Virus record (IMG/VR): IMGVR_UViG_3300030061_002391
Location: 1-25,085 of that record
Direction: 5' to 3' (one strand)
DNA: 25,085 bases
From: a virus
Shown here: piece after piece, positions 8,130-23,749 of the stretch
Layout: each line of letters starts with the position of its first letter
Position numbering within the stretch: position 1 is the first letter of the stretch
Notes under the pieces: model-generated
What the model saw: only the letters and a program-made list of their open reading frames with translations
What the model was told of the DNA's origin: nothing
Database searches by the model: none
Position numbers and translations under genes: made by a program

Positions 8130-8933
8130 ATGAATATTGTTACGGGTGCCAAAGGTTTCATTGGAGATCATTTTGCTTGCACCGTAGATAAACCTCTCGA
8201 AATTGACATTGACAACTGCTTTGAACTATTAAACAAATTTAATCGGTGGGATGATGTGGATATGATTATCCACATGGGTGCTAGATCATGGACCACTGAC
8301 AAGGATATTGATGCTATCTATCGTTACAACATTGACTATAGCATAAAACTATTTGAGAAAGCAATTCAGTATGGTATCCCCGTCAAGTATGCTTCCTCAG
8401 CATCTACCTATGGTAAATGCTTAACTTCTGATGGAATCATCAATCCACTGAACTACTATGCACTATCAAAGGCAACAGTAGATTACTGGGTGCAAGAAAA
8501 CATGCATCGGTTCTCTCACATCCAAGGGTTCAAGTTCTTTAATGTGTATGGTTCGGGTGAGGTACACAAAGGAGAACAAGCAAGCCTTGTGAGTAAATTC
8601 AAATGGCAATCTGCCACAGGAAAGATTCATCCTTTCCAAGGATCTAATAAGGTCTTCAGAGATTATATTTGGGTAGGAGATATTGTTAATGTTGTCCTTA
8701 CCAACTCTGCTGGCAGTGGTATCTTTGATCTTGGCACTGGTGAATCAATAACTATTCAACAAGTTGCAGATATTATTGCACAAAAAACCGAGGCTATGGT
8801 AGAGGAAATTCCCTTCCCACCAAACCTCGTTGGTAAGTATCAATACAATACACAAGCAGACATGAGTTGGTTGTCTGACTCATATAAGTTTAAAACTGTC
8901 TCGGATTATGTCAATCACCACGATGAATTCTAA
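8130..8933 (+). CDS. hldD: ADP-heptose 6-epimerase-like NAD-dependent epimerase
   Basis: A 267-aa short-chain-dehydrogenase-type epimerase. The Rossmann motif is G6-AKGFIG near the N-terminus (VTGAKGFIG), the catalytic pair is Y110-ALS-K114, and a YASSAST segment carries the Ser/Thr. The second half strongly resembles HldD/RfaD: GFKFFNVYG, HKGEQAS, RDYIWVGD, GIFDLGTGES and EIPFPPNLVGKYQYNTQADM. HldD converts ADP-D-glycero-D-manno-heptose to the L-glycero epimer; it is slightly shorter than the roughly 310-aa E. coli enzyme. I use the ATG at 8130 because the motif starts directly after it. It is the only plus-strand gene, and its end overlaps the cupin gene tail to tail by 23 bases. A related nucleotide-sugar epimerase is the alternative. 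Confidence 0.85.
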   Translation: MNIVTGAKGFIGDHFACTVDKPLEIDIDNCFELLNKFNRWDDVDMIIHMGARSWTTDKDIDAIYRYNIDYSIKLFEKAIQYGIPVKYASSASTYGKCLTSDGIINPLNYYALSKATVDYWVQENMHRFSHIQGFKFFNVYGSGEVHKGEQASLVSKFKWQSATGKIHPFQGSNKVFRDYIWVGDIVNVVLTNSAGSGIFDLGTGESITIQQVADIIAQKTEAMVEEIPFPPNLVGKYQYNTQADMSWLSDSYKFKTVSDYVNHHDEF

Positions 8934-9291
8934 TTGAGTCAGAGTCAAAGTGTTGCGTTGAGAACTCAAACAATTCTGAGTCTTGCAACGCAACCATTTG
9001 GTGCTTAAGACCTACAGGAACATGAAAGTTATCTCCAGGTTCTAAAGTTAGAATCTCTGCCTTCCCAATATCTTCATCCCATCCATAATATAATGAGATG
9101 TGGCCGCTCTGTAAGTAGAAGGTCTCATCTTTTATTTTATGGTAGTGCCATGAACATCTCTTTCCCTTCTCAAGGAATAATAGTTTACCACAATACTTCT
9201 CGTTATTTACGATCCACTTCTCGTGCCCCCATCCCTTAGGAACGAAAGTAATACTGGTCGAAGAATTTGTCTGACTGGATTCCTTTGTCAT
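8911..9291 (-). CDS. Cupin-domain sugar-metabolism protein
   Basis: A 126-aa single cupin with metal ligands H49-Y-H51, E56 and H97 (CSWHYHKIKDETFYLQSG, then VPVGLKHQMVAL). The opening VPKGWGHEKWI resembles the cupin part of mannose-6-phosphate isomerase-like and nucleotide-sugar epimerase proteins. It probably isomerises or epimerises a sugar phosphate or nucleotide sugar in this cassette. Its only plausible ATG lies inside the HAD phosphatase gene (56-base overlap). Its end overlaps the convergent epimerase gene by 23 bases. No isomerase activity can be assigned from sequence alone. Confidence 0.8.
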   Translation of the reverse strand: MTKESSQTNSSTSITFVPKGWGHEKWIVNNEKYCGKLLFLEKGKRCSWHYHKIKDETFYLQSGHISLYYGWDEDIGKAEILTLEPGDNFHVPVGLKHQMVALQDSELFEFSTQHFDSDSIRIHRGD

Positions 9292-9577
9292 CGATGTAGT
9301 AATCTGCTGCAGGTTTTCCTAGGAAGAGAGCGTCGTACTTGCATCCCCAGGATCTTAATTGATTGATAGTAAAGACATAGTATTCTTTACGGGCTGCCTC
9401 ACGATCATTCTTAAATGTCCCCATACCTCTCGCAGTATGATAGATGATCTCGTGCCCCTCATCATGTAGTTTATTTATGATCTTGATTCTGTCGTGACGA
9501 GGGATTGCATTGGTGTATCTCCCATCTCCTTCACCAGGATAGCATATGGTGCCATCGATGTCTACATTGTATCTCAT
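9236..9577 (-). CDS. HAD-superfamily phosphatase, possibly sugar-phosphate specific
   Basis: A compact 113-aa HAD protein with all four motifs: D6-I-D8-G-T (nucleophile and acid/base Asp), T48 in YHTARG, K88 in FLGKP and D96/D97 in YYIDDKG. There is no cap domain, which suits small sugar phosphate or tail-to-tail multimer enzymes such as capsule biosynthesis phosphatases. In a heptose pathway the missing step after the kinase is removal of the 7-phosphate from heptose-1,7-bisphosphate (GmhB); this gene could do it, but it is not close to E. coli GmhB in sequence. Its ATG overlaps the preceding 2OG-like gene by 4 bases. Confidence 0.8.
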   Translation of the reverse strand: MRYNVDIDGTICYPGEGDGRYTNAIPRHDRIKIINKLHDEGHEIIYHTARGMGTFKNDREAARKEYYVFTINQLRSWGCKYDALFLGKPAADYYIDDKGIQSDKFFDQYYFRS

Positions 9578-10146
9578 TCAGAAAAAGTGCAGGTAACATT
9601 AAAAGAAATAGTAATTCTATTATCTTGTGCAGGTTCAGTACAATGGTACATATCAGAGGGAAATATTAATATGTTACCTTCACTAATGTGTTTGGTATCA
9701 TAAGCAAAGTTCTGATATGCAGTATTAGATGTTCCTGCACCAAAGAATATTGTATTATTCTCTTCTCCTACATGGAGAAGATATACTCCAGAGAAGGTAG
9801 AGTCGGCATGAACATGAGGTCCATGCGATTCACCAACCTTATAGTTATTATACCAGATATGCTGTAGGTTTATGTCCTCCGTGTCAGAAATGTCATAAGG
9901 TAAAGACTCCATGCAGGATGCTATTGGATCAAATACAATTTCTGAGAAAAAATCAAGACTTTCAAGGTAATCCCCAAACTCACCAGAATCATCGTTGAAA
10001 TTATCATAGCAAGACTCAACTGGTCTTTCGGTTATCCAGGGAAATAACTTCTCTTTAATTTTATCATGACGCCTTAGTTGTTTGTTATAAAGAAAGGGTC
10101 CTGGGAATAAAACTAAATTAGATTTTGAGTATTCTATCGACATCAT
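9574..10146 (-). CDS. 2OG-Fe(II) oxygenase-like protein inside the sugar cassette
   Basis: A 190-aa protein of the same group as those at 2045 and 2587. Motifs are H111-V-H113-A-D115 (GPHVHADSTFSGVYLL), distal H168 in MYHCTEP and R177 in NRITISFNV. Here an HxD (H113/D115) is available as well as HxH, unlike its paralogues. It lies between the heptose kinase (29-base overlap at the first of two Met codons) and the HAD phosphatase (4-base overlap), so it is firmly embedded in the sugar operon. It might hydroxylate a sugar or the protein acceptor; both are inference. Confidence 0.78.
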   Translation of the reverse strand: MMSIEYSKSNLVLFPGPFLYNKQLRRHDKIKEKLFPWITERPVESCYDNFNDDSGEFGDYLESLDFFSEIVFDPIASCMESLPYDISDTEDINLQHIWYNNYKVGESHGPHVHADSTFSGVYLLHVGEENNTIFFGAGTSNTAYQNFAYDTKHISEGNILIFPSDMYHCTEPAQDNRITISFNVTCTFSE

Positions 10147-10912
10147 CCATTCTCAAAGTGTAAGTGCCAGGGTTTTGTACTGCTATAGCAGCAGATTTAT
10201 TTGCAAATGAGATAGCCTCTTCCATCACTGGTAATTGAATGTAATAAAATACTAGAGCGGCAAGAAAAGTATCTCCAGCACCAGTGACATCAAATGTCCT
10301 AACAAGATCGTTGCAAGGAAACTTTTTTTTATTCCACACTGCACCATCGGCACCGAGAGTAACAATTAAATTTTCCCCATTAGGAATATTATCAGTATCT
10401 AATAGTTCAAATTCTTTTTTATTAATTTTGTAGATGACATTATTAAACTCAGTGGGAAGTTTAGTTTTCTTAGTATCTACAAATACTCTGATGTTAGGAT
10501 ACTTTCTAGCAATTTCACCAATAATCTTAGCTTCAGGTAGATATCCTTTATCATAGTCTGAAATGACAACGGCATCATATGCTCCATGAAGCAATGCCAT
10601 CTGTAACTGAGATGGATGCAAAGGTTTTACATCGGGTTCATTATCTACGCGGACAATTTGCTGGTTACTTTTACTGTCAATGAATCTAGTCTTCTTTGCT
10701 TCCTCTTTATTGCATAGAAAAGTAACAGTAATGCCAAGAGATTCTAAGTTCTCCTTGACATTACCCGCCATACCAGGAGCAGTATCCTTACCATCTTCAA
10801 TGAGGACAGGAACAGGTGCTTCTGGACTTAATCTATCAACATTACCATAAACCCATTCATCGGTACAACTATCCCCGATCAATAATACATTGTATTGTCT
10901 TGCTAGTTGCAT
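10118..10912 (-). CDS. rfaE1: PfkB-family heptose-7-phosphate kinase (HldE kinase domain)
   Basis: A 264-aa ribokinase-fold protein. The N-terminal VLLIGDSCTDEWVYG and LSPEAPVPVL follow the HldE kinase domain pattern; SDYDKGYL, TLGADG and the catalytic DVTGAGDTF (Asp214) are intact. HldE kinase phosphorylates heptose-7-phosphate at O-1. In most bacteria it is fused in front of the nucleotidyltransferase; here it is separate and downstream of it. The start at 10912 lies 44 bases inside the preceding gene, and no later start would keep the essential first strand, so the overlap is probably real. Confidence 0.85.
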   Translation of the reverse strand: MQLARQYNVLLIGDSCTDEWVYGNVDRLSPEAPVPVLIEDGKDTAPGMAGNVKENLESLGITVTFLCNKEEAKKTRFIDSKSNQQIVRVDNEPDVKPLHPSQLQMALLHGAYDAVVISDYDKGYLPEAKIIGEIARKYPNIRVFVDTKKTKLPTEFNNVIYKINKKEFELLDTDNIPNGENLIVTLGADGAVWNKKKFPCNDLVRTFDVTGAGDTFLAALVFYYIQLPVMEEAISFANKSAAIAVQNPGTYTLRMDDVDRILKI

Positions 10913-11273
10913 AATCTTCTAACCTAGGGAAAAAATGTACCTCGGCAGCGTACATGGATCCGATAACTGTTTTATTTTCCCAGTCAGATCCTACTACCAT
11001 TATATCAGGTGATGTAACCCTGATACACTTCTCTAGTTCTTCATCAGAACCAAATAGAACTACATGATCTACTGTCTTGAGACTCTGTAGCATGTAAGCC
11101 CTATCTTCAGCGTTATTTATTGGGCGGGTGGGACCTTTCTTCTCACGCACCCTGTCATCACTATCAATACCTACAACAACCACATCACCCTGAGACTTTG
11201 CATACTCTAGGAGTTCTAAGTGTCCACGGTGTAGGATGTCAAAGGTTCCATTAACAAATACTTTCTTAGTCAT
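10869..11273 (-). CDS. rfaE2: Heptose-1-phosphate nucleotidyltransferase-like protein (HldE C-terminal domain)
   Basis: A 134-aa cytidylyltransferase-fold enzyme. It has the HxGH motif at H15/H18 (VNGTFDILHRGHLELL), KKGPTRPINN in the position of the HldE RPVN segment, DIMVVGSDW, and the C-terminal ATSKTIQCII that corresponds to the STTNII signature. The length equals an isolated HldE adenylyltransferase domain. It would make ADP-heptose from heptose-1-phosphate, although a glycerol-3-phosphate-type cytidylyltransferase cannot be excluded. It overlaps the carbamoyltransferase by 8 bases and the kinase by 44. Confidence 0.85.
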   Translation of the reverse strand: MTKKVFVNGTFDILHRGHLELLEYAKSQGDVVVVGIDSDDRVREKKGPTRPINNAEDRAYMLQSLKTVDHVVLFGSDEELEKCIRVTSPDIMVVGSDWENKTVIGSMYAAEVHFFPRLEDYATSKTIQCIIDRG

Positions 11274-13065
11274 TGAGAATTGTAATCAGTTTACCGAACT
11301 CAGGAAGATACAGGTATTCAATATCAGATTTTGAAAGAGTCCTACATGCATCATCCAAAGTCTCAACCAGTGGTTCTCCACCAAGATTGAAAGAGGTGTT
11401 GAATAGAATGGGACAACCTGTAGCATCATAGAATGCTTTGATCAAATCATAGTAATTTTTATTCTGCTCCTGGGTAACAGTCTGAATACGACATGTACCG
11501 TCTACATGAATGATAGCAGGAATTTTTTCTTCAATACCTGGTTGACATTTTACAGCATACATCATGAAAGGAGTGTCTTCCATTCCACGGAGATCAAACC
11601 ATTCTTCTGCATGTTCTGCAAGAATAGATCCAGCAAAAGGACGGAAGTATTCACGATGTTTTACTGTATTTACAAAGTCTTTACCCTCAGGATCACGAGG
11701 ATCATAAAGGATAGAACGATTGCCAAGAGCACGAGGACCAGCCTCGGATTTTCCTTGGTAAAGTGATACGATATTCTCCTTAGAAATCAAATCAATCACA
11801 TCTTGATTCTGGGCATCACTTACAACACCGCCATACTTATCGGCAGTATCAATAAGTTCTTCAATCGTATAGTTATAGTCGGGTCCATGATAAAGATCAG
11901 TGATCCTAGGAGGAAGAGTTACTTCCTTTTTCATACCAACCATACTTTGATAATAAACATATAAAGCAGCACCGATAGCAGTCCCGCCATCATTACTGAC
12001 AGGTTCTACAAAAAGATTGATGCCATCTTCTTTCAGTTTATCAAGATACCAATAGTTTGCTACACAATTAAGACCATATCCACCAGAAAGAACTACATTT
12101 TTCTTACCAGTAATCTCAACTGCTTTATAGATTAGTTTGAGAACTGCTTCTTGAGTTTCGGTTTGTACCGCATAAGCAAAATCTCTACGATTCTTAAGTT
12201 TAGTTAGATCGTCAGAATCATGATCATTTAAGAAAGGATATTCTTGAGTATTGACATGCCCAGCATTGGGATAGGTAGGAACGATAACATTTCTATCTAC
12301 TGTTCCAGTCTTCTTAAATAAAGTAGGAACCTCATCATTAGGTTCTCCATATGGGAACAGACCCATAGTTTTACCAGCCTCGATAGCATGCCAACCACAA
12401 TATTGTGTCGCAGCTTCGTATGCCTTTACAATACCTGCGGTTTCATCCAAGACATATGAGAAGGTTCCCTCCTCGCCAGGATAAGCTTCTCCTGCTGCCA
12501 TGGCAGTCACATAGTTTGTAGTACAGGGACCACGAGTTCCTAAGTGCTTGTACTTGGTATTGATTGTATTTGGGAATTCACAATCAAAAATAGTCTCAGT
12601 TTCCCAAACAGTTTCTTCCTGACCCATGACCTCAAACTGAATGAAGGTTCCAGCACCGTCAACTACAACTGCTGTAGCATCTTCAAATCCAGAACGATAA
12701 AATGCACAAGCAGCATGGAGTTTATGGTGAACATTACCAACATCAACTACCTGAGGATGCTTCGCGTCTGGGTTTGGACTATCGTCTCTAATCAGTCCAA
12801 GTTTTCTAGCTAGACCAACATAGATATGTTCGTAAGAATACTCAAGACGACTGCAATCTCTATCCATTAGTTGAGTGTGACCAACAACCAGGAAATCAAG
12901 TTTGTCTGTGTATTTTTTAATCTCCAGCATCGATGCAAGAGGTGCGCCATCATACTTACGACGAGACAACCTCTCTTCTTCAATAGCAAAAACTAATTCA
13001 CCATCTTTGAGAAGACATACTCCACCGTTATGTCCGCGAGTAATACCTGCAATCCACTGTGTCAT
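11266..13065 (-). CDS. Carbamoyltransferase (NodU/CmcH family)
   Basis: A 599-aa two-domain enzyme. The N-terminal Kae1-like domain begins WIAGITRGHNGGVCLLKDG, with EEERLSRRK, the metal-binding VHHKLHAACAFY and VVDGAG. The C-terminal domain carries KSEAGPRALGNRS, HREYFRPFAGS and FNTSFNLGGEPLV. The length is typical for the family. Family members transfer carbamoyl from carbamoyl phosphate, through carbamoyl-AMP, to a sugar hydroxyl. Here the acceptor is probably a sugar built or attached by the neighbouring genes. It overlaps the glycosyltransferase by 4 bases (ATGA). Confidence 0.95.
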   Translation of the reverse strand: MTQWIAGITRGHNGGVCLLKDGELVFAIEEERLSRRKYDGAPLASMLEIKKYTDKLDFLVVGHTQLMDRDCSRLEYSYEHIYVGLARKLGLIRDDSPNPDAKHPQVVDVGNVHHKLHAACAFYRSGFEDATAVVVDGAGTFIQFEVMGQEETVWETETIFDCEFPNTINTKYKHLGTRGPCTTNYVTAMAAGEAYPGEEGTFSYVLDETAGIVKAYEAATQYCGWHAIEAGKTMGLFPYGEPNDEVPTLFKKTGTVDRNVIVPTYPNAGHVNTQEYPFLNDHDSDDLTKLKNRRDFAYAVQTETQEAVLKLIYKAVEITGKKNVVLSGGYGLNCVANYWYLDKLKEDGINLFVEPVSNDGGTAIGAALYVYYQSMVGMKKEVTLPPRITDLYHGPDYNYTIEELIDTADKYGGVVSDAQNQDVIDLISKENIVSLYQGKSEAGPRALGNRSILYDPRDPEGKDFVNTVKHREYFRPFAGSILAEHAEEWFDLRGMEDTPFMMYAVKCQPGIEEKIPAIIHVDGTCRIQTVTQEQNKNYYDLIKAFYDATGCPILFNTSFNLGGEPLVETLDDACRTLSKSDIEYLYLPEFGKLITILND

Positions 13066-14048
13066 TTGCCAAATCCTTTAGTACAAGTTTCCTTAGTTTC
13101 TTTTTTCTTTGCCTTTACAGGTGCTCCAAGTCTATCCTTACATGACTTGATTACAGATTGAATATCATCTTCAGTCATGGTCATACACTCATCATTTTGC
13201 ATGTCCTGATAGTCCTCCATCGTCAATCTAATCGGAGAAAATGATCTACGATCTTCACCAAGATCAATTATATCAAATTGATCATCATCTGGATAGGAAA
13301 TATTGACAGGGTAAGTAGATCCAATAACAGCAGTTACACTTGTTTGAGTTGCTGCTGCGATGTGTTGACCAACAGAATCACATCCTAAGAAATGATCTGC
13401 TCTATTAATAATAGATGCCCAGATACGAATGTCCTCAATGTGAGGAAGAATGAATGGAAGTTTACCTTCACCATCTTCAGTCTGGAATGGGAACTCAGAC
13501 ATTACAATGACACAATAATCTTTCTTAAGTTCATTAATAATCTTGCTGATATCTCCAAGATTAAAACTTCTTGAAGTTGGGTCAAAAATATATCCACCCT
13601 CGTCTTGTACACCTCTACCAAAAGGTTGTACAACAATAACTTTATCTCTGCCCGTTACTTTGATAGCCTCATCAACTAACTGAAGACCTTGAATGCCTTC
13701 ATGCTTTGCTAGTTTGATGGATGGTCTGGTAAGTTCTCTTGGTTCATCTACACCATTGATTTCCATATCAAATGCTTGAGCAATACTACACTTCTGGTTA
13801 TAGTAATGCCAGCGACGATATGGTTCTGGAGTAATACAATCTCTCTCTTTGATCTTATCCTCAAAGAGACCTTTATGCCAGATGTCGTAAGCGTATTTGT
13901 GTAATACTGGGTGGGACTTATAGAAATTCATACCACCTTCACACACAATGATAAAATCATCATGGGTTTCTGCGTATTTTTCAAAAGCAGGGATGGAGGT
14001 GATAACTCTACCAGCTCCTCCATTGATGAAGAATGCTTTAGATCTCAT
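13062..14048 (-). CDS. GT9-like glycosyltransferase (heptosyltransferase type)
   Basis: A 328-aa GT-B-fold protein. The N-terminal AFFINGGAGRVITSIPAF matches the start of ADP-heptose transferases, VIVVQPFGRG is the donor-domain beta strand, and DHFLGCDSVGQHIAAATQ followed by AVIGSTYPVN is the GT9 donor-binding signature (the D-S-G-x-x-H motif is D-S-V-G-x-H here). With hldD- and hldE-like genes alongside, an ADP-heptose donor is the natural inference. The acceptor (virion protein or host lipopolysaccharide) is not visible. A basic C-terminal tail (KAKKKETKET) follows the domain. It is followed by the carbamoyltransferase with an ATGA overlap. Confidence 0.8.
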   Translation of the reverse strand: MRSKAFFINGGAGRVITSIPAFEKYAETHDDFIIVCEGGMNFYKSHPVLHKYAYDIWHKGLFEDKIKERDCITPEPYRRWHYYNQKCSIAQAFDMEINGVDEPRELTRPSIKLAKHEGIQGLQLVDEAIKVTGRDKVIVVQPFGRGVQDEGGYIFDPTSRSFNLGDISKIINELKKDYCVIVMSEFPFQTEDGEGKLPFILPHIEDIRIWASIINRADHFLGCDSVGQHIAAATQTSVTAVIGSTYPVNISYPDDDQFDIIDLGEDRRSFSPIRLTMEDYQDMQNDECMTMTEDDIQSVIKSCKDRLGAPVKAKKKETKETCTKGFGK

Positions 14049-14074: not shown

Positions 14075-14812
14075 TTATAAAAAGAAAACCTGATTCACCC
14101 TATCATGACTGGTGAACATCCCATGATCAATATTTTGCGAGTGCAAGATATCGGATTCATAAAAGATACATCTATTATACACCATCTCAGCCTCATATTC
14201 AACATTCCACTCCCTGTCACCATATAACCACTCCCTAATATAAGGATAAACTTGGTCTTGTCTGGTCACTTCCTCATCAAATCCCTCAGGTTTGTCAATA
14301 TAGTCCATCACATTAAATGGAAGAGACATTTCTCCCTTATATGAGTACAAATTTGTTCCTCCAGCACATTCATCTGGAGTATTCAAATATATTACAACAC
14401 CAAATTGAGTGAAGTCTGTTGATATATCACTCGTATAATAGTCCTGATGAGGAACACTACACCAGGCATCTTTGATTACACTCTCATAATTTAGAACATT
14501 ACACATAAATCCAACGGCATCCCATTGGCACTCATACATTCTTTCATGAGTATTCTTGCTCCATATGGAGTCATTCAAGCAATACTTATCAAAAAATGGT
14601 TTGAGATTTTCTTTTATTTCTGATCTCTCTTGAAATATTCTAGATCCAGGAAGACCGTTTATCAATGCAGGATCTCTCACCGCATCAAGTTTTAGTGCCA
14701 GGTCTCTTACTTCGTCTGGATTTTTATAAAAATTATCTGCAATGACAATTCTTTTAGCTTGTGGTCCTACAGTTTTAATCGATACATCGATGTTTTCACT
14801 CAGTTCAAACAT
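14075..14812 (-). CDS. DUF6445-like 2OG-Fe(II) oxygenase-fold protein
   Basis: A 245-aa protein with a canonical-looking facial triad H122-Q-D124 (SVPHQDYYTSD) and H224 (DILHSQNID), followed by R238 (DRVNQVFFL). The N-terminal IVIADNFYKNPDEVRDLAL is the pattern of DUF6445 proteins. A GAGGA ribosome-binding site precedes the ATG by 4 bases. It begins directly after the terminator of the Cys-rich gene and is the first gene of the sugar cassette, 26 bases before the glycosyltransferase. It probably hydroxylates a protein or small molecule; substrate unknown. Confidence 0.78.
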   Translation of the reverse strand: MFELSENIDVSIKTVGPQAKRIVIADNFYKNPDEVRDLALKLDAVRDPALINGLPGSRIFQERSEIKENLKPFFDKYCLNDSIWSKNTHERMYECQWDAVGFMCNVLNYESVIKDAWCSVPHQDYYTSDISTDFTQFGVVIYLNTPDECAGGTNLYSYKGEMSLPFNVMDYIDKPEGFDEEVTRQDQVYPYIREWLYGDREWNVEYEAEMVYNRCIFYESDILHSQNIDHGMFTSHDRVNQVFFL

Positions 14813-14825
14813 AAAATCCTCACAG

Positions 14826-14860
14826 TCAAAAAAATTTCGGGAAAAAATTTCCCGAAATTA
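14826..14860 (-). terminator. Strong Rho-independent terminator after the Cys-rich gene
   Basis: A perfect 12-bp inverted repeat (14833-14844 with 14848-14859, 3-nt loop) is followed on the minus strand by seven T residues (through 14828). It closes the fibre module about 25 bases past the stop at 14885. Confidence 0.9.
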
Positions 14861-14884: not shown

Positions 14885-15763
14885 TTAGGACCAGGTTGTG
14901 ACCACAACTAGGCCACCTCCACCCCAGTCACCCCAACACTGACCGCCTTGGGTAGATCCAGAGTGACCACCTCCTCCAGGGAACAGTGAAGGACTTGAGC
15001 AACAACCTCTAGCGTTACCATATGAACAACGGTGTGTACCGAAGTTTCTTCCCGAACGCCATGGACCTGGAGGTCCCGATGCAACAGACCAAGAGAGTGA
15101 ATGGCAGTTCACATGCTTCAGTTCACCACCACTTAATCCGCAGATATAGAATTCGTTCTCTGGATTCATAGTGTCTGGCTTAGATTGTGCATCAGGCCAA
15201 GCAGCAGAACAACCGTTCCAGCAGTTAGTTCTTTGTGCCTGCTTCAGACAGGTATAGCAGGAATTGGTACACAAAGTATTAGCATAGGTTCCACCTTGCA
15301 TACAGAATGTTCCAAGACCTCCACCCAATACAAAAGAGGGACACCCATAAAATCCACATCCTGTTCTACCGTGGCAACATCCACAGCAAGAACATCTACT
15401 TGTAGAACCAGCACAAATAGTATATTGAGTGCTATTAGCAGTGAAGTGACCGCAGTTTGCATACTGCATTTTAGTGGCATAACCACCACCACCGCCTCCC
15501 ATGCCAGGTCCACCGCCACAACAGCGAGCACCACCACCTGAACCACCGCCAGATACAATCTCAAACTGAATGGTAGTTACACCCTTTGGAACAGTCCAAA
15601 GATAGCAACAACCACCATTACAGGGTTCATTGTGGCAACAGTTGAAGAAGAAGTTTCTGCAGACAATACCAGTGGAGACACCTGTTACTTTGCCAGGACC
15701 GACTGAGGTATCAAGGAACGCATCGTTTCCATCGATTTTCTTAAAAGTCTGGTAGTCAGCCAT
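14885..15763 (-). CDS. Cysteine- and glycine-rich virion adhesin-like protein, copy 2
   Basis: A 292-aa protein with 29 cysteines (about 10%) and several glycine runs. The N-terminus (ADYQTFKKID) and WTVPKGVTTIQFEIVSGGG are followed by CC pairs at residues about 41-50, 79-80 and 131-139, and a Trp/Gly-rich C-terminus ending LVVVTTWS. By eye it differs from the copy at 16540-17418 at about 25 positions, and all cysteines are conserved. Gly-rich segments recall T4-like fibre-tip adhesins, but I cannot assign a family. Cysteine may form disulfides in the extracellular particle or bind metal. The TATAAAT just before the ATG is too close to be a promoter. Confidence 0.75.
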   Translation of the reverse strand: MADYQTFKKIDGNDAFLDTSVGPGKVTGVSTGIVCRNFFFNCCHNEPCNGGCCYLWTVPKGVTTIQFEIVSGGGSGGGARCCGGGPGMGGGGGGYATKMQYANCGHFTANSTQYTICAGSTSRCSCCGCCHGRTGCGFYGCPSFVLGGGLGTFCMQGGTYANTLCTNSCYTCLKQAQRTNCWNGCSAAWPDAQSKPDTMNPENEFYICGLSGGELKHVNCHSLSWSVASGPPGPWRSGRNFGTHRCSYGNARGCCSSPSLFPGGGGHSGSTQGGQCWGDWGGGGLVVVTTWS

Positions 15764-15768
15764 TTATA

Positions 15769-16509
15769 TCACTCCGCTGGATCTGTATGAGGTTTTGATG
15801 CAAGACCAGTTTCAGGAGTATCACCTGTAAACTTGTCAACATCACCAGGTTCTCTAGGCCATACAATTAAATATGTCTTATCACCAACTGATGACCAAGT
15901 TGAGGGAAGATCTCTAAGTTTTTGACGATATGTTCTCCATGCAGAGGCAAATCCTTCAGGAGCATCAGCAGGAACCATACTATCAGATGACTCAAGCAAT
16001 CTGTTTCTAATATCTCTCACATTTTCCCAACTAAATGCGGCAGATTCACCATCAGGAAGTAAAATCTCTGTATGTTGACCAGAAAATTTACCAGTCTTCC
16101 AAGTGCTATTTGCCATATCATATTCAAACGAACACATATCAAACACTTCATTAAAGTGAAGATAGTCAGGAATGATTGGATTAGGTTCTGAGTTAGGACC
16201 AGCAGGAGTTTCAATCAGATCTGGACCCTCAATGCCACCCCACATAGCAATTGCATTCATTGGATGAGTATCTGCATTTAACTCAACTACTCTAGCAGCT
16301 GCAGGAGGATCTCTTTTTTCTGGTTCATCTGAGGGGAAGCTATGCACTACCTCCCAATTGGGAGCAGCATCAGTTCCATTATTTTCATACCAGAAAGTAA
16401 TTTTATCTGGTCCAACATAGGTGGCAATACCACTTCGGTTTGTGTCCTGATTATCACCGTAGAATTCGGTAGGAACAGGGTAAATAACTGTCTTAGTAAT
16501 CTGCGCCAT
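15769..16509 (-). CDS. Phage tail assembly chaperone-like protein
   Basis: A 246-aa protein whose region at about residues 185-215 (WRTYRQKLRDLPSTW) matches the W-x-x-YRQ-x-LRDLP pattern of phage tail-assembly chaperones, which are often encoded next to tail fibres. The N-terminal part (about 1-130) is beta-rich and unlike the short chaperones, so the motif sits at the end of a longer protein that may itself be structural. It lies between the two Cys-rich paralogues. A GATAAATA motif 24 bases upstream overlaps the stop of the preceding gene. Confidence 0.65.
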   Translation of the reverse strand: MAQITKTVIYPVPTEFYGDNQDTNRSGIATYVGPDKITFWYENNGTDAAPNWEVVHSFPSDEPEKRDPPAAARVVELNADTHPMNAIAMWGGIEGPDLIETPAGPNSEPNPIIPDYLHFNEVFDMCSFEYDMANSTWKTGKFSGQHTEILLPDGESAAFSWENVRDIRNRLLESSDSMVPADAPEGFASAWRTYRQKLRDLPSTWSSVGDKTYLIVWPREPGDVDKFTGDTPETGLASKPHTDPAE

Positions 16510-16532
16510 TGCTAAAATGTACTCCGTTGTTA

Positions 16533-16541
16533 GTATTTATC
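16533..16541 (-). promoter_or_regulatory. Late-promoter-like motif before the chaperone-like gene
   Basis: GATAAATAC on the minus strand, overlapping the TGA stop of the upstream Cys-rich gene and 24 bases before the ATG at 16509. The same TGATAAATACTA sequence recurs at 22024-22034. Confidence 0.6.
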
Positions 16542-17418
16542 AGGACCAAGTTGTGACGACGACTAGGCCACCACCGCCCCAGTCACCCCAGCATTGTCCA
16601 CCTTGAGTAGATCCAGAGTGACCACCGCCACCAGGAAAGAGAGAAGGTGAAGAACAGCAACCTCTAGCGTTACCATATGAACAACGGTGTGTACCGAAGT
16701 TTCTTTGAGTTTGCCAAGGACCAGGAGGAGTAGAAGAAACTGACCATGCACCAGAGTGACAGTCTACATGCTTCAGTTCACCACCACTTAATCCACAAAT
16801 ATAAAATTCGTTCTCTGGATTCATATTGTCTGGTTTGGACTGCGAATCAGGCCAAGCAGCAGAACATGCGTTGAAGCAGTTGCTTCTTTGTGCCTGCTTC
16901 AGACAGGTATAACAGGAATTGGTACATCTCTGACCACCATAGGATCCACCTTGCATACAGAATGTTCCGAGTCCACCACCCAGAACAAACGATGGGCAAC
17001 CGTAGAATCCACAACCAGTTCTACCATGACAACATCCACAGCAAGTACATCTACTGGTAGATCCAGCGCAGATAGTGTATTGTGTAGAGTTTGCAGTAAA
17101 GTGACCACAGTTAGCATACTGCATCTTGGTAGCATAACCGCCGCCGCCACCAGCCATACCAGGACCACCACCACAGCAACGGGCACTACCACCAGTTCCA
17201 CCACCAGATACAATCTCAAATTGAATCGTAGTTACGCCCTTTGGAACGGTCCAAAGATAACAGCAGCCACCATTACAGGGTTCGTTGTGGCAGCAGTTGA
17301 AGAAAAAGTTTCGGCAAACGATACCAGTGGATACACCAGTTACTTTACCAGGCCCTACGCTCTGATCAAGAACTGCATCGTTCGCATCAATTTTCTTAAA
17401 AGTCTGATAATCAGCCAT
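16540..17418 (-). CDS. Cysteine- and glycine-rich virion adhesin-like protein, copy 1
   Basis: A 292-aa protein, paralogue of the gene at 14885-15763. It has 29 cysteines, including C-C pairs and a CTCCGCC cluster near residue 133. Differences from the other copy are concentrated in three places: residues about 74-92 (glycine tract), 161-170 (GGSYGGQRC against GGTYANTLC) and about 222-245 (the SGAWSV...QTQR stretch). Those stretches may be exposed and specificity-determining. No signal peptide or membrane segment is present, as expected for a virion protein. A CATAAATA late motif lies upstream, and a terminator of the 1219-aa fibre precedes it. Confidence 0.75.
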   Translation of the reverse strand: MADYQTFKKIDANDAVLDQSVGPGKVTGVSTGIVCRNFFFNCCHNEPCNGGCCYLWTVPKGVTTIQFEIVSGGGTGGSARCCGGGPGMAGGGGGYATKMQYANCGHFTANSTQYTICAGSTSRCTCCGCCHGRTGCGFYGCPSFVLGGGLGTFCMQGGSYGGQRCTNSCYTCLKQAQRSNCFNACSAAWPDSQSKPDNMNPENEFYICGLSGGELKHVDCHSGAWSVSSTPPGPWQTQRNFGTHRCSYGNARGCCSSPSLFPGGGGHSGSTQGGQCWGDWGGGGLVVVTTWS

Positions 17419-17451: not shown

Positions 17452-17459
17452 TATTTATG
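17452..17459 (-). promoter_or_regulatory. Late-promoter-like motif before Cys-rich copy 1
   Basis: CATAAATA on the minus strand, 33 bases before the ATG at 17418 and downstream of the terminator at 17471-17493, so it is well placed to restart transcription of the following genes. Confidence 0.65.
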
Positions 17460-17470
17460 AAACCATAGCA

Positions 17471-17493
17471 AAATAAAGGGAGGTTGCCCTCCC
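17471..17493 (-). terminator. Terminator after the 1219-aa fibre gene
   Basis: On the minus strand GGGAGG (17493-17488) pairs with CCTCCC (17483-17478) around a 4-nt GCAA loop and is followed by TTTATTTTG. It begins 12 bases past the stop at 17505. Confidence 0.8.
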
Positions 17494-17504
17494 CCGTAAC
17501 AGAA

Positions 17505-20500
17505 TCAGATAGTGATGATTCTCCAACCTTGTGATCCATCGTAGTAAACGAGTTCAAAGGCGGCACCTTCTGTTGAGACTGTCAAATCAGCAAGAGCACC
17601 CATGATTGGTTGACCATTTCTACCAATCGTGAGAGCGTTGGAATCAAATGAACTAGTGACATCGAAGATTCTGACGCTATCACCTAGAGCAGGAGATGCG
17701 GGCAGGGTAACTGTGAATGATCCACCGCTAGTGTTTGCCCAGACCTGTTGTCTATTAACAGCGGTTACTCCAGAAGTAGCAGTAACATTAGCATAGGCAC
17801 CGAGAGGTAACCATGCAGCACCGTTATAGAATTCAAATCCATCAGCATCGGTATCGTAGCGAAGACCACCTTCAATAAGATCAATACCAACAGGTCTAGT
17901 TGCCTGAGTACCACGAGGTGGAACTAAGATACCAGAGGTGGTATCCATCTTACCGCGAGTGAGGAAGCCACGAACTGCTTTCTCAGTAGGACATGCAGTG
18001 TTAGAGTCACCAGATAGGAACTCATCAGAAGAGAATTCGTTAACTGCTTCACCAATCTGACCACCAATAGCACCCAGTCTCAGTTCCGCAAGACCAGACA
18101 GGTTGAATGCGGAAGCGTCCAAGGTAGCAGCACCAGTCAACTGGTTAACTGAGAAGAACTCACCAACTCTGAAGTTACCGCCTTGGTCAGTAGATACGAA
18201 GAAGATTTTACCAGTGTTAACTACATTGGTTTCGTTACCCTGAGAGGCTGTGTTCTCATCAACAGTAGGATAGTTGGTTTGTGCAGTGTTACCTGTACCA
18301 ATCAAGAGGAAGTCATGACCCGTAAGACGAACCTTGGAGAACTTAGATCTCATCAAGAACTCTTGATCGTCGAAGGAAGCAGGAGCAGATGCTTTAACTG
18401 GTGCAATGTTGATCGTTGCACGACCAGATGCAAAGTCATATTCAGAAACTGTTCTGATAATGTAACTAATTGAATCGGAGAATCCTAATCCAACTGTACT
18501 AAATCCAATCGCGTCACCAACAAGTGGTGTTGTGGTTAGTCCAACTACTTCAAATAGTCCATCTTTCTGTCCACCAACTGCGTTAGATGCAGATGCAATC
18601 TTGACATATCCTGTAGCACCAGCACCAACGCTATCAAACTCAATGAATTCACCAGGTGTGAAGACAGTAGTACCAACACCAACAGCACCGTTAGCACCAT
18701 CAGGGTTACCAAATCCAGTAGCGTACTTAAAGTACAGTTGATCACCAGAGATTTGGTTGTTTGTTACAGTACCACGAGCTCCTGATACAGTTCCTCTCAT
18801 GGTAGCGCCGACTGAAATAGTACCAGCGGAAGTACCTACTTGAGTTGCCATCTTGTCACCAAAGAGGCGACCAGCGCGAGCAACTTCTAATGTAGAGAAT
18901 CCAACAGCCAATGCACCGTAGTCGCCATAGGAATTGTTACCTGAGAGAGATCTAATTTCAGATCCATCATCAGAAACATAACCGAAAGCACAGTAGTAAG
19001 TGAAGGAGGAAACAATCTCAGCAAGAGCATCGTCTTCCAACCAGAAACCTACACCACCAGAGTGAATGTTGGTAAAGGCGTCGAAGACCATCGACTTACC
19101 ACCTCTACCCTCAGGTTTACCCTCGTGTACACCACCCTCAATAAAGATGCCGATAGCACCACCATGTCCAGTACCATCAATACATACATCAGAGAAAGCA
19201 GTACAGTCTTTGATGTAAGGAGAACGCTCAAGAATCGGAGTCTCTGGATTAAGTCTGAAGTAGATACCGCAAGTTGTAGTACCTACGCCAACTTTATTTT
19301 GCCACTTATCAGTATTGAAAGGATCATTAGTGTCATAATTAAATCCTTGGAGACCCTTCATCGTGATCGCCTGAACCGTAGTAGAGTCAGAGACGAAGAA
19401 CATCGTCTGACGACTATTAGGAACAAGACCGTCAGTAGAAACACCTGTGGCAGGCTCAACTGTCGTACCTCTCAGAACATCACCAGCAATGGAGAAGTTC
19501 TTAGGAAGCGTGATAGGAAGTTGTTCTTTGAATACACCAGCAGACAACTTCAGAATGATAGGAGATACATCAGTAACTTCACCGCCACTTACATAGGTGT
19601 GAGCAATCGTGGAGATACCGACATTAGTTACGAAACTGTTAGAGTCAACTACGGAGTCAACTTTAAAGAAGAATCCTTGTGTACCATCTGGGAAGATAGT
19701 AGTTGTGATACCAGAGTGTGCAGCAGCACAAGTAAATCCAATACCTTGAAGTTTAACTTGTCCCTGAGGGAACAGACCATGAGAAGCAGCAGTAACTGTT
19801 GCAACACCACTAGTCTCATCATAAACAAAGTTAGTAATATCTCTTCTAATCTGACCAGCAGTAGAAGCATAAGCAATATTGGCCCAAGCATTATCTGGGG
19901 TAAGACCTGTATTGTCATTGTTACCCTGCTGAGCGTCAACATAGTACACCTTGGTGCGAAGACCAGGATACTGCCATTCCACCTCATCGCTAGAAGAGAC
20001 TCTTAGATATGTACCTTGCGTACCAATACCCTGTCTTGTAGGACCAGTGCCATCTCTAGTAAGCAAGTCACCTTTAGTTGTCAGCAGTGCTGCGCTATCA
20101 CCGATAGCGAACGCTGCCCACATGGTAACAGCAGTACCAGGTTGAACATTAATGTTGGAAGATGCAATCGAGATGTAGGCCGAAGAGGAGAACTCAGCGA
20201 CATCACCAATCTCATATACACCACTATTACTCCAAGTACTTCTCCAATTGAATCCTCTGTTCAGCAGGGACCAACCATTAACACCAGTATCGAATGTGGT
20301 AATTGCATTACCAACAGGTCTCTTATCTTGGAGAATTTTAACTTGGTCGGCAATATAAGAGTTACCACCAAGGGTTACGATCTGACCACGGGCATAGATA
20401 TCACCAGGATCATAGGTAGAACCTGCACCAGTACCAATACCACCAACAAGAACTGACCACTGGTCTTCGTTCTCGTTAGGTTGAGCACCTCTTGGGTTAG

Positions 20501-21164
20501 TACCGATAGCAACATAAGATGCACCGATATACTCTACAATGTCACCTCTTTCGTAGCGTCTGGTGGAGTTGTAGAGACCTTCATTAGTGAAGGCTTTACT
20601 GAAGTCGGTAAAGTTAGATGCTGGAGGGTAGAAACCATCCGAACCAAAACCTGTAGGATCATGTACGGATGTAGAAACACCCTGCATTGTGAAGTCAGCA
20701 GCAACTTGGAATGGTGCTGTTGTTCTATATTCTTGTCCACCATACTTAACAACATCGTTGATGCCGTAGTAGGTGTTTGTAGTAAAGGCACCTCGGAAGT
20801 TCACTCCCTCGGCATAGAGATCCCAATACAGTGGGAAGTCGTTGCTATACCAGTTACTCTGAACACCAATCGAGGTGTGTTGTGCCGTACAGATATATTG
20901 ATTACCGCCTTCCTTGACGATATCGTTTACAACATATCCAGTACCAACTGCCCACTCGCCAGCGTAATTCTGACCCTCGGTGTGGAGGTCCCAGTAAGTA
21001 TTGTCGTTTGGAAAACCAGTAGAGCTAGCGTCCGAAGTATGATTGCCTGTACAAACATAACTGCTGGCACCGTATCTAACGATGTCATCAATAATGAATG
21101 CGGTAGATGCTGTCCAGGCTCCACGCCAGTTAAATTTCAGTCTACCAAGTCTAAATTCTGCCAT
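17505..21164 (-). CDS. Large virion fibre protein with carbohydrate-binding-like repeats
   Basis: A 1219-aa protein. The N-terminus has about six repeats of the CBM5/12-like form N-W-R-G-x-W...Y...D-I-V...G-x-x-Y-x-C at residues 13-40, 66-92, 121-147, 196-219, 253-271 and 305-333. From about 404 (KVYYVDAQQGNNDNTGLTPD) the sequence looks like a right-handed beta-helix typical of phage fibre and lyase domains. The final 100 residues (VTLPASPALGDSVRIFDV ... GWRIITI) form a beta domain that resembles the end of the 156-aa protein at 21527-21997. It has no enzyme motif. It probably binds host surface polysaccharide. It lies 12 bases after the 116-aa gene. Confidence 0.8.
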   Translation of the reverse strand: MAEFRLGRLKFNWRGAWTASTAFIIDDIVRYGASSYVCTGNHTSDASSTGFPNDNTYWDLHTEGQNYAGEWAVGTGYVVNDIVKEGGNQYICTAQHTSIGVQSNWYSNDFPLYWDLYAEGVNFRGAFTTNTYYGINDVVKYGGQEYRTTAPFQVAADFTMQGVSTSVHDPTGFGSDGFYPPASNFTDFSKAFTNEGLYNSTRRYERGDIVEYIGASYVAIGTNPRGAQPNENEDQWSVLVGGIGTGAGSTYDPGDIYARGQIVTLGGNSYIADQVKILQDKRPVGNAITTFDTGVNGWSLLNRGFNWRSTWSNSGVYEIGDVAEFSSSAYISIASSNINVQPGTAVTMWAAFAIGDSAALLTTKGDLLTRDGTGPTRQGIGTQGTYLRVSSSDEVEWQYPGLRTKVYYVDAQQGNNDNTGLTPDNAWANIAYASTAGQIRRDITNFVYDETSGVATVTAASHGLFPQGQVKLQGIGFTCAAAHSGITTTIFPDGTQGFFFKVDSVVDSNSFVTNVGISTIAHTYVSGGEVTDVSPIILKLSAGVFKEQLPITLPKNFSIAGDVLRGTTVEPATGVSTDGLVPNSRQTMFFVSDSTTVQAITMKGLQGFNYDTNDPFNTDKWQNKVGVGTTTCGIYFRLNPETPILERSPYIKDCTAFSDVCIDGTGHGGAIGIFIEGGVHEGKPEGRGGKSMVFDAFTNIHSGGVGFWLEDDALAEIVSSFTYYCAFGYVSDDGSEIRSLSGNNSYGDYGALAVGFSTLEVARAGRLFGDKMATQVGTSAGTISVGATMRGTVSGARGTVTNNQISGDQLYFKYATGFGNPDGANGAVGVGTTVFTPGEFIEFDSVGAGATGYVKIASASNAVGGQKDGLFEVVGLTTTPLVGDAIGFSTVGLGFSDSISYIIRTVSEYDFASGRATINIAPVKASAPASFDDQEFLMRSKFSKVRLTGHDFLLIGTGNTAQTNYPTVDENTASQGNETNVVNTGKIFFVSTDQGGNFRVGEFFSVNQLTGAATLDASAFNLSGLAELRLGAIGGQIGEAVNEFSSDEFLSGDSNTACPTEKAVRGFLTRGKMDTTSGILVPPRGTQATRPVGIDLIEGGLRYDTDADGFEFYNGAAWLPLGAYANVTATSGVTAVNRQQVWANTSGGSFTVTLPASPALGDSVRIFDVTSSFDSNALTIGRNGQPIMGALADLTVSTEGAAFELVYYDGSQGWRIITI

Positions 21165-22024: not shown

Positions 22025-22033
22025 GTATTTATC
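22025..22033 (-). promoter_or_regulatory. Late-promoter-like motif before the 156-aa gene
   Basis: GATAAATAC on the minus strand, overlapping the stop of the preceding oxygenase gene and 28 bases before the ATG at 21997. Arrangement and sequence are nearly the same as at 16533-16541. Confidence 0.65.
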
Positions 22034-22529
22034 AGAAGTAACTTACCGATAATACAATCCTAGCTTTTTGATCAGTGCATGTGGTGCTACGATGTGGTGT
22101 GGATCCATCAAAAAGAACTACTCTATTGTCAACACTTTCTACCTTTGTTCCATCTTCAAATCCAGTATATCCGTTGCAAGTATTCAAATATAAAACTGCT
22201 GTATTATGATTGTACTGATAATCTTCATGCAAATCATGCTCGACAAGTTTACCAATATTAGGATACAAATTAAATCTTATTCTTATAATAGATTTAACTT
22301 GCAAATAATTTACAAGTAGATGGTCTAGTTCTTTAACGAAAGAACTCTGCGGTTCAAATCTATCAAAGACTCTATGAGTGAAAAAGAAATGCTCATCATT
22401 CATCTCACCTAGGTTAGCAACCTCTTGACAGAAAACCCAAGGAAACGATGTACTGAATACACTATTCTTTAGGTGGTCATAGTAATCCTGCTCTAACCAG
22501 TTGTCAATTATCTTCGGGGTAGTATTCAT
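22032..22529 (-). CDS. Prolyl-hydroxylase-like 2OG-Fe(II) oxygenase
   Basis: A 165-aa protein with a canonical facial triad H101-E-D103 (VEHDLHEDYQYNHNT) and H146 (GSTPHRSTTC), and R157 in ARIVLSVSYF as the 2-oxoglutarate ligand. The spacing fits the prolyl-4-hydroxylase-like group. It is the most canonical of the window's oxygenase-like genes, along with 14075-14812. It starts 26 bases inside the upstream PF13759-type gene and lies directly before the fibre module. A role in modifying virion proteins is inferred only from this position. Confidence 0.8.
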   Translation of the reverse strand: MNTTPKIIDNWLEQDYYDHLKNSVFSTSFPWVFCQEVANLGEMNDEHFFFTHRVFDRFEPQSSFVKELDHLLVNYLQVKSIIRIRFNLYPNIGKLVEHDLHEDYQYNHNTAVLYLNTCNGYTGFEDGTKVESVDNRVVLFDGSTPHRSTTCTDQKARIVLSVSYF

Positions 22530-23097
22530 AGAGATTAAATGCTATAGACATTCTTGTTTCCGAGGTTTCACTTGGAGATACATCGTGAGATAATGATGCA
22601 GGAAACAAGAGCATCATTCCATCTTCAGGGTCTACACTAAAACTAGTGGCCTGAGTTAGCGTTAGGTTGTGGTCATCTAAATGATGCCATGTAAGTTCAC
22701 CAGAATTATCAGGACATTTTATATAGAGAACTCCTGCCAACTGAGATCCAGGATGTGTGTGTCTAACATTATAAGATTGATTGTAATTTATATTGAACCA
22801 CATGTTTGACAACCGAGGTTCAAAATTCATCTCTACATATTCATTCTTCTTATATACATCTATCAAATCAATAATTCTTTCACTCATGTAATTAAGAAAA
22901 GGGGTAAAAGATTTGTCCAGATAAAAATCATCTGGACTCTGATATCCCCTTACATTACTTCTCCAATTCTGCTGATATACTTTGGCATAATTTTCCATCC
23001 AAGACATGAAATCATCTTGGATGTCTCCAAAGTTATCGTCGTGAGATCTTGCCACAACATATGGCAGAATAGGAAATGCCTCACTCAATGTATCCAT
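22504..23097 (-). CDS. 2OG-Fe(II) oxygenase-like protein (PF13759 type)
   Basis: A 197-aa protein with H113-T-H115 in VRHTHPGSQLAGVLYIK, distal H171 in SLSHDVSPSE and R182 in TRMSIAFNLY. The overall pattern equals the genes at 2045 and 2587, with HxH in place of HxD. Residues 95-130 (NMWFNINY) form the conserved strand of the double-stranded beta-helix. It overlaps the secreted HExxH gene by 17 bases and the following prolyl-hydroxylase-like gene by 26. Confidence 0.8.
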   Translation of the reverse strand: MDTLSEAFPILPYVVARSHDDNFGDIQDDFMSWMENYAKVYQQNWRSNVRGYQSPDDFYLDKSFTPFLNYMSERIIDLIDVYKKNEYVEMNFEPRLSNMWFNINYNQSYNVRHTHPGSQLAGVLYIKCPDNSGELTWHHLDDHNLTLTQATSFSVDPEDGMMLLFPASLSHDVSPSETSETRMSIAFNLYEYYPEDN

Positions 23098-23749
23098 TCT
23101 CCCTCAACCACTCTCCTGTCATTGGAGTAGGTGGATATACTTCCCACATATTACCATCAGCACATGCTTGTAATGCTGCCTGAGTCATTCCTTCTGTACG
23201 GCCTGCCCAACCTGCTTCTGCTTCCCAAGGCAATGCTGACTTAGGATAGGTACGCTCTGCCAGTGTACGCCACAGCATAGGAACACTCTCCTCAGGTTTG
23301 ATAATAGCAATCATACTATTCTCAATGGTGCCTGCCATACAATCTTGTGCAGCATGCCAACCTTCGTGACGCATCACTTGCATCAATACATCAGGACGAC
23401 CCATCCAATCTCTATTCAAGTAGAAATTATTACTGACAGTATGATACACACCACGGTGTCCTTGTGGAAAATACTTGGGATCTGCAAGGAAAACTTGAAC
23501 ACCAACTTGATTCAATGAAGCAAGCATGTGATTAAACTCTGCACTTACATGGCTAAAATCTTCCCAGTTTTCATACTGCGTAGAAATATCTAGGAGAGAG
23601 AACACTTCATCTACATTGTCAGTACACTCCTGAAGGAGCATACATCCCATGGCATCATATGAATTATATCCGTGTTCAAGTTTTGGGTCTGAAAGGGCAG
23701 GCAGGGCAACTGCTGCCGCAGCAACCAGGGACGCAATAATTTTTTTCAT
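23081..23749 (-). CDS. Secreted putative zinc metallopeptidase-like protein
   Basis: A 222-aa protein with a clear signal peptide: MKKII, then hydrophobic residues 5-19 and a likely cleavage after LPALS (about residue 20). The mature part carries H128-E-G-W-H132 (VMRHEGWHAAQDC), a textbook HExxH zinc motif. About 45 residues downstream lies WEAEAGWAG, whose E176 or E178 could be the third ligand as in gluzincins. If active it would be exported to the host periplasm late in infection or act on the envelope; this is inference. Its ATG overlaps the 94-aa gene's stop by 4 bases. Confidence 0.7.
   Translation of the reverse strand: MKKIIASLVAAAAVALPALSDPKLEHGYNSYDAMGCMLLQECTDNVDEVFSLLDISTQYENWEDFSHVSAEFNHMLASLNQVGVQVFLADPKYFPQGHRGVYHTVSNNFYLNRDWMGRPDVLMQVMRHEGWHAAQDCMAGTIENSMIAIIKPEESVPMLWRTLAERTYPKSALPWEAEAGWAGRTEGMTQAALQACADGNMWEVYPPTPMTGEWLRENGYIE

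Follow-up and report, generated by a model that had tools for sequence, protein, structure and literature searches.

We analyzed a 25,085-nucleotide viral contig, positions 1–25,085 of the IMG/VR record IMGVR_UViG_3300030061_002391 (hereafter the window), and conclude that two cysteine-saturated proteins encoded on its minus strand, c1 and c2, are quite probably chaperone-folded tail-fiber tip adhesins of a T4-like, cyanophage-related phage. In minus-strand order, the genes for a tail fiber, c1, a chaperone, and c2 follow one another and are succeeded by a gene of the phrog_1644 minor coat/DUF6445 type (14812–14075). The four genes are:

17505–21164, minus strand: tail-fiber gene, 1219 aa, matching phrog_9851 tail fiber protein (E 1.5e-244)
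16540–17418, minus strand: candidate adhesin copy 1 (c1), open reading frame (ORF) of 292 aa with 29 Cys and 56 Gly, matching phrog_4205
15769–16509, minus strand: tail-fiber assembly chaperone, 246 aa, matching PF16778 Phage_tail_APC, phrog_9740, and phrog_4912
14885–15763, minus strand: candidate adhesin copy 2 (c2), ORF of 292 aa with 29 Cys and 59 Gly, matching phrog_4205

An earlier note on this DNA had described a pair of near-identical 292-residue paralogs sharing 29 cysteines. Both ORFs are present; they differ at 25 residues and have identical positions for 29 of 29 Cys. The near-identity holds for the proteins but not for the DNA, in which 155 of 879 nucleotides differ (82.4% identity); third codon positions account for 114 of these differences. 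The synonymous divergence (dS) is ∼1.02 and dN/dS ∼0.063, and a recent or tandem duplication is ruled out as the origin of the pair by a dS near 1. The amino acid differences are clustered, with eight in one 25-residue segment (P 0.02; nearest-neighbor P 0.008) and none in residues 239–292 (P 0.005), but they form about five groups (12–19, 75–89, 159–164, 179–198, and 219–238) rather than the three stretches proposed earlier. Cys accounts for 9.9% of c1 and c2 versus 1.03% (73 of 7,110 residues) elsewhere in the window, the background being 26 other minus-strand ORFs chosen from 71 listed (binomial P ∼1e-19). Judged from c1 and c2 alone, the sharing of all 29 Cys falls short of significance (P 0.065); it becomes significant once relatives are included.

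The 1219-residue fiber protein carries four CBM_5_12 stretches in a Pfam scan, has homologs in S-SSM7 (45%), Sf-FS3 (44%), and Mosig (32%), and is the probable shaft carrying the adhesins. The gene flanked by c1 and c2, previously called chaperone-like on inspection, indeed matches the Pfam family Phage_tail_APC (42.6 bits for a cut-off of 26.6, E 5.5e-11, residues 162–221), and its two PHROG matches are both tail fiber assembly families. We infer that this chaperone acts on c1 and c2. A PDB sequence search with the chaperone gave a best E of 0.13.

The structure of c2 was predicted as a monomer with AlphaFold2, using as input a 95-member alignment of the relatives described below. The model has a predicted local distance difference test score (pLDDT) of 72 and a predicted template modeling score of 0.72. 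Its best solved-structure match is the Pam3 fiber 7ypx (Z 18.6, r.m.s. deviation 2.9 on 199 residues), with 7yfw at Z 18.1, followed by the Bxb1 tail tip 9d93 (Z 12.6) and the glycine-rich domains of ALK/LTK (Z ∼8–9), the next unrelated structure being at Z 4.0. Among predicted viral proteins, those of S-CAM3 and P-SSM2 come first, then many tail proteins annotated "glycine-rich domain". The c1/c2 tip is thus predicted to be a TNF-like sandwich with a glycine-rich distal domain of the Pam3 gp24 type. No N-terminal helix is predicted in residues 1–33, where pLDDT is ∼44–50 over most of the stretch, and a PDB sequence search with c2 returned no match.

According to the available text of the Pam3 study (PMC9608196), gp24 was detected by virion mass spectrometry and gp25 was not. 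The adhesin reading of c1 and c2 rests on the match of the model to this fiber, whose gp24 forms a glycine-rich receptor-binding tip. As modeled, the window system would share with Pam3 gp24/gp25 (7ypx, 7yfw) the TNF-like and glycine-rich tip, the adjoining chaperone gene, and the variable distal loops (same source). Unlike in Pam3, the tip of the window is a separate protein encoded after a long fiber gene and comes in two copies around the chaperone; furthermore, c1 and c2 contain 10% Cys, whereas the available Pam3 text does not hold the word cysteine or disulfide, a comparison made by text and not by sequence. The adhesin role put forward in the earlier note finds backing in the order of the genes, the presence of a chaperone gene, and the fold match to a fiber tip.

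Another separate glycine-rich tip of a long tail fiber, with hypervariable loops, is described in PMC12892980 for T2-like phages, namely gp38 (S16, PP01; PF05268), and the window type would work in a similar way. gp38 has a β-helix, whereas a TNF-like domain is predicted for c1 and c2. Membership in the S16 gp38 family was ruled out: PF05268 matched 0 of the 95 aligned members at E 0.01 and hhalign gave a probability of 0.5%, while S16 gp38 itself matches PF05268 at E 4e-73. The S16 gp38 structure (6F45) is absent among the structural matches listed, which by itself does not prove a difference. Literature searches listed no paper about Cys-rich phage fiber tips. The probable tip of the window type, Cys-saturated and free-standing, with between one and three copies set around the chaperone gene, is a new form relative to the Pam3 TNF-like/glycine-rich tip.

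The two proteins belong to a real and conserved protein family, probably one of fiber-tip adhesins. Scans of viral contigs gave 39 loci with a protein query and, in an overlapping set, 79 with an alignment query, for which the best 80 of 117 were kept. A profile hidden Markov model run on these contigs and on five isolate records yielded 183 ORFs, of which 178 are complete, 114 distinct, and 112 at least 240 aa long. All 112 distinct complete relatives are Cys-rich, with 19–36 Cys (7.5–11.9%) down to ∼30% identity; relatives without cysteines, which had been named beforehand as a refutation, were thus found in 0 of 112 cases, and the Cys-poor proteins at the equivalent position in other phages are far more diverged. 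In the 95-member alignment no residue type of the window protein is better conserved than Cys, whose positions are retained in a mean of 73% of cells, versus 64% for Gly. Cys is kept at positions 53, 117, 124, 154, 172, 181, 220, and 246 in 0.99–1.0 of the relatives, at 52 in 0.95, and at 169 in 0.94. Likewise, in eight two-copy phages 28–29 Cys are common to both copies despite 21–45 amino acid differences. The profile phrog_4205, of unknown function, is matched by c1 (E 1.7e-22), by c2 (E 8.6e-22), and by 95 of the 95 aligned relatives.

Five isolates, S-SSM7, Sf-FS3, P-SSM2, S-CAM1, and S-CAM3, carry a family member annotated as hypothetical, in the same gene neighborhood as in the window. 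In S-SSM7, Sf-FS3, S-CAM1, and S-CAM3 two or three copies precede the chaperone, unlike in the window, and the S-SSM7 and Sf-FS3 proteins have ∼30% identity to c1 and c2. A tblastn search of a phage collection with a window protein gave no hit at 1e-5 and weak ones once the limit was raised to 10; the isolate members were reached via the S-SSM7 sequence. With ADH denoting a Cys-rich adhesin gene and APC the chaperone gene, the 83 distinct contigs or records show the orders ADH-APC (45, part of them truncated where the contig stops), ADH-APC-ADH as in the window (14), three ADH followed by APC (14), ADH-APC-ADH-ADH-APC (6; contigs L041, L101, L112, L113, L115, and L116), and partial or other (4). 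An APC gene is present in every architecture counted.

A distribution restricted to phages of cyanobacteria was not upheld, as the gp23 sequences of L115 and L041 point elsewhere: they are closest to those of PA5oct, Vibrio 2.275, and Sinorhizobium phages (65–71%). The nearest relatives of these two contigs by gp23 being PA5oct-like jumbo phages, Cys-rich tips would extend beyond cyanophages proper. Photo_RC genes (PF00124) were found in 8 of 15 contigs tested; PF00504 was found in 0 of the 7 contigs lacking them, some of which are fragments. One contig without a Photo_RC gene, L104, has a gp23 87–91% like those of S-SSM7 and Sf-FS3. A scan of prokaryote genomes returned five loci (L211–L215), all in metagenome bins and not used; the bins are labeled Actinomycetota, Flavobacteriales, Rhodobacteraceae, and Neomarinimicrobiota, and the loci probably lie on mis-binned phage contigs.

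Fibers homologous to that of the window are followed by either Cys-rich or Cys-poor glycine-rich proteins. The ORF compared was the first one after the fiber gene with at least 150 aa and at least 12% Gly. At window-type fiber loci this ORF contains 8.8–11.6% Cys (99 of 103 loci had such an ORF and 4 dropped out; a contig fetched by two scans was counted twice). At Mosig-type fiber loci, Cys is 0–3% in 44 of 51 and 7.8–10.6% in 7 of 51, after 36 of 87 loci had dropped out: 29 lacked a listed ORF, many of them being located at the end of a contig, and in 7 the ORF had less than 12% Gly. The seven Cys-rich rows correspond to P-SSM2 and the six ADH-APC-ADH-ADH-APC contigs. In the Cys-poor proteins, PF21722 (Gly_rich_2) falls in the C-terminal half (E 4e-13 and 2e-13 for the two tested), and the C-terminal 250 aa of this group contain 37% Gly versus 19% in the Cys-rich proteins. 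The glycine-rich protein of the Pelagibacter phage Mosig resembles c1 and c2 in its place after a homologous fiber, in a C-terminal PF21722 region that is subthreshold in c1 and c2, and in a GSGIVVV-like ending; proteins of this type differ in being mostly 510–560 aa long, with 0–3% Cys and twice the Gly content. A PDB sequence search with the Mosig protein gave no match. The link between the Cys-rich and Cys-poor tips rests on domain family and position. PF21722 is matched at E ≤0.01 by 48 of 95 Cys-rich relatives (best 1.2e-6).

Several points weigh against the proposed reading of c1 and c2. Both score below the PF21722 cut-off of 24.3 bits (c2, 23.7 bits, E 5.7e-5; c1, 14.6 bits), and the profile comparison of Cys-rich with Cys-poor proteins is weak (probability 29%). 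The c2 model, a monomer, is of low confidence at residues 1–12, 22–30, and 179–200. The chaperone model (pLDDT 83) has no PDB match (best Z 3.4), leaving a Pam3 gp25-like fold unconfirmed. No virion proteomics was found for a phage with the Cys-rich family, the proteome described in the accessible source being that of S-SM1. Full obligate disulfide pairing, finally, is disfavored by Cys parity and by odd branch changes: of the 95 relatives, 48 have an even and 47 an odd Cys total, and on a tree of the 112 proteins a single Cys change occurs on 31, and an odd net change on 56, of the 89 changed branches. A protein with every cysteine in an intramolecular pair should show neither odd totals nor odd changes, and the equal frequency of odd and even totals argues against such pairing. 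That c1 and c2 are instead non-virion proteins, acting in host takeover or storage and sitting in the fiber operon by chance, would suit the "unknown function" label of phrog_4205, and the proteomics is neutral in this respect; their fixed place after the fiber gene, the chaperone partner, and the fold of a known fiber tip make this very unlikely.

With obligate pairing disfavored, partial disulfides, intersubunit disulfides, metal sites, or plain packing remain for the cysteines. A search for disulfide partners by co-gain and co-loss found at most three joint changes for the strongest pairs (254/272, 42/43, and 248/277), which is too few; the alignment used partly misplaces Cys129 and the columns around it relative to the 95-member alignment. 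A tip locked by disulfides, in which most Cys pair after leaving the reducing cytoplasm and stiffen the loops in oxic seawater, has in our view somewhat less than an even chance. Ten positions are Cys in 94–100% of the relatives, and 24 of 29 Cys lie outside predicted strands, though no more than by chance (P 0.35). Springtail antifreeze proteins offer a parallel in the accessible part of PMC10235112, as glycine-rich polyproline-II bundles with two to four predicted disulfides. The near-equal odd and even totals and the odd net changes speak against it, but would be compatible with a partial network.

A metal-binding tip, whose clusters C124-C126-C127-C129-C130 and C154-C169-C172-C181 would hold zinc or iron, would also tolerate odd counts, and the clusters are dense with several near-invariant members. 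Searched against PDB sequences, the family profile has a single match, the zinc-binding domain of rabphilin-3A (1zbd_B), at a nonsignificant E of 0.088. Moreover, iron bound by HxH motifs is reported in phage fibers in the available text of PMC11705849. We consider this reading rather unlikely, as Pfam scans of the window proteins and of the 95 members matched no recognized metal-binding family, paired CxxC motifs are not dominant in c1 and c2, and the 1zbd_B match may reflect composition only. Lastly, the small Cys side chain might just take the place of Gly or Ser within the lattice and be kept by descent, with no special chemistry. Single-Cys gains and losses are common, 76 columns hold at least three Cys occurrences, and the Gly fraction is roughly half of what the Cys-poor proteins have; yet Cys content stays at 7.5–11.9% to ∼30% identity and Cys is the best conserved class, as if selected, and we regard mere lineage habit as quite unlikely.

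The two copies were compared across nine two-copy phages, seven after near-duplicate removal. The features concerned in the window are:

17371–17373, minus strand: c1 codon 16 (Val), slot-diagnostic, Val in 9 of 9 c1
16699–16773, minus strand: c1 residues 216–240, variable loop region including slot-diagnostic residue 223, pN/pS 0.47
15716–15718, minus strand: c2 codon 16 (Phe), slot-diagnostic, Phe in 9 of 9 c2
15044–15118, minus strand: c2 residues 216–240, variable loop region by replacement rates and slot signal

Residue 223 is Gly or Arg in c1 and Leu, Phe, or Asp in c2, and two perfectly slot-diagnostic sites are reached by 1 of 256 labelings. Identity at third positions is 0.631 within a phage, 0.599 for the same slot across phages, and 0.556 across slots, with a slot signal of 1 of 256 labelings (1 of 64 after near-duplicate removal). 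These values are better accounted for by an old pair that underwent partial gene conversion than by the two extremes, an independent duplication in each phage and a purely ancient pair. In the protein sequences, a strong slot signal is seen in residues 11–25 (1 of 256) and 215–240 (4 of 256) and is absent in 241–292 (200 of 256), a region where one variant is common to c1 of contig L005 and c2 of contig L011, which suggests, at the sequence level, exchange between slots. The ratio of replacement to synonymous polymorphism (pN/pS, eight phages) is highest in residues 216–240 (0.47), followed by 11–25 (0.36), 241–275 (0.35), and 156–200 (0.28), and is 0.01–0.11 elsewhere. Placed on the model, 24 of the 25 c1/c2 differences would lie outside predicted strands (P 0.013). 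Residues 1–10 scarcely vary and may dock on the fiber. The proposal that c1 and c2 are alternative receptor binders gains indirect support from the slot-specific residues, which all nine two-copy phages retain, and from replacements in predicted loops.

Candidate transcription signals surround the genes:

17476–17495, minus strand: terminator-like hairpin in the fiber/c1 gap, 8-bp stem with 5 GC pairs and a T-rich tail
17452–17458, minus strand: ATAAATA before c1, T4-type late-promoter-like by motif match
16534–16540, minus strand: ATAAATA overlapping the c1 stop, directly before the chaperone gene, by motif match
14833–14859, minus strand: terminator-like hairpin after c2 at the cassette end, 12-bp stem with a T-run

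ATAAATA, which resembles the T4-type late promoter consensus, precedes c1 in 5 of 8 two-copy phages, the remaining 3 having CTAAATA there; over the whole window it is not enriched (7 observed versus 5.3 expected). By eye, a TAAATAC stretch lies near the c1 stop in 8 of 8 two-copy phages. The hairpins after the fiber gene and after c2, the latter strong, each recur in 8 of 8 examined, and c2 starts 5 nucleotides past the chaperone stop. Given the recurrent flanking hairpins and the motif before c1, the c1, chaperone, and c2 genes look like one cassette.

Other genes of the window include a small glutaredoxin (PF00462, E 4.8e-6; 1780–2010), which shares the minus strand with the Cys-rich genes. 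In a 1643-aa protein (3125–8056, minus), a protease region of subtilisin type (phrog_3677 protease, E 1.9e-20), with GHGTSAA and NGTSAAAP stretches, is combined with tail-fiber-type domains; the protein is a possible tail-borne protease. A sugar-type group at 8911–14048 comprises a carbamoyltransferase, a PfkB kinase, a cytidylyltransferase, a weak glycosyltransferase-9 match, and a cupin; at a similar place, P-SSM2, S-CAM1, and S-CAM3 have a gene annotated "cysteine dioxygenase". By eye, a 222-aa protein (23081–23749, minus) has a signal-peptide-like start and HEGWH (HExxH) and is possibly an exported metallopeptidase, and the products of 2045–3159, 9574–10146, and 22032–23097 resemble 2OG-Fe(II) oxygenases or DUF6445 proteins; the profile-scanned gene at 14075–14812 joins this set in one late region.

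Taken as fiber-tip adhesins, c1 and c2 would function as follows, with virion location, docking, chaperone action, receptor binding, and Cys chemistry as we infer them. Like Pam3 gp24, each copy would fold as a TNF-like β-sandwich with loops extending distally to form a glycine-rich lattice, and the conserved N-terminal peptide (1–10) would probably dock the tip on the end of the upstream-encoded fiber. The chaperone encoded between the copies would fold or trimerize both. Distal loops, mainly 156–200 and 216–240, would contact the host receptor, and the copies, kept different in these loops, would give each phage two nonidentical tips. Compared with Mosig-type proteins, the copies have lost about half of the glycine and consist of 10% Cys, the cysteines most likely tying loops together through some extracellular disulfides, metal sites, or both. 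A bolder version, which may well be wrong, is a class of covalently or metal-clamped tips in which a dense Cys network, redox- or metal-gated and maturing only after lysis, replaces the polyglycine lattice of other phages; one phage would mount two such tips, marked by Val16 and Phe16, with two receptor specificities on one virion that recombination exchanges piecewise between the slots.

Little is known of the receptor-binding proteins that marine cyanophages use, and the family marks a likely host-recognition protein in cultured and uncultured cyanophages. A homologous fiber with either a Cys-rich or a Cys-poor tip offers a clean comparison for asking why a protein would carry 29 Cys despite the reducing cytoplasm, and the two-slot system lets one ask whether a single phage has two receptor specificities.

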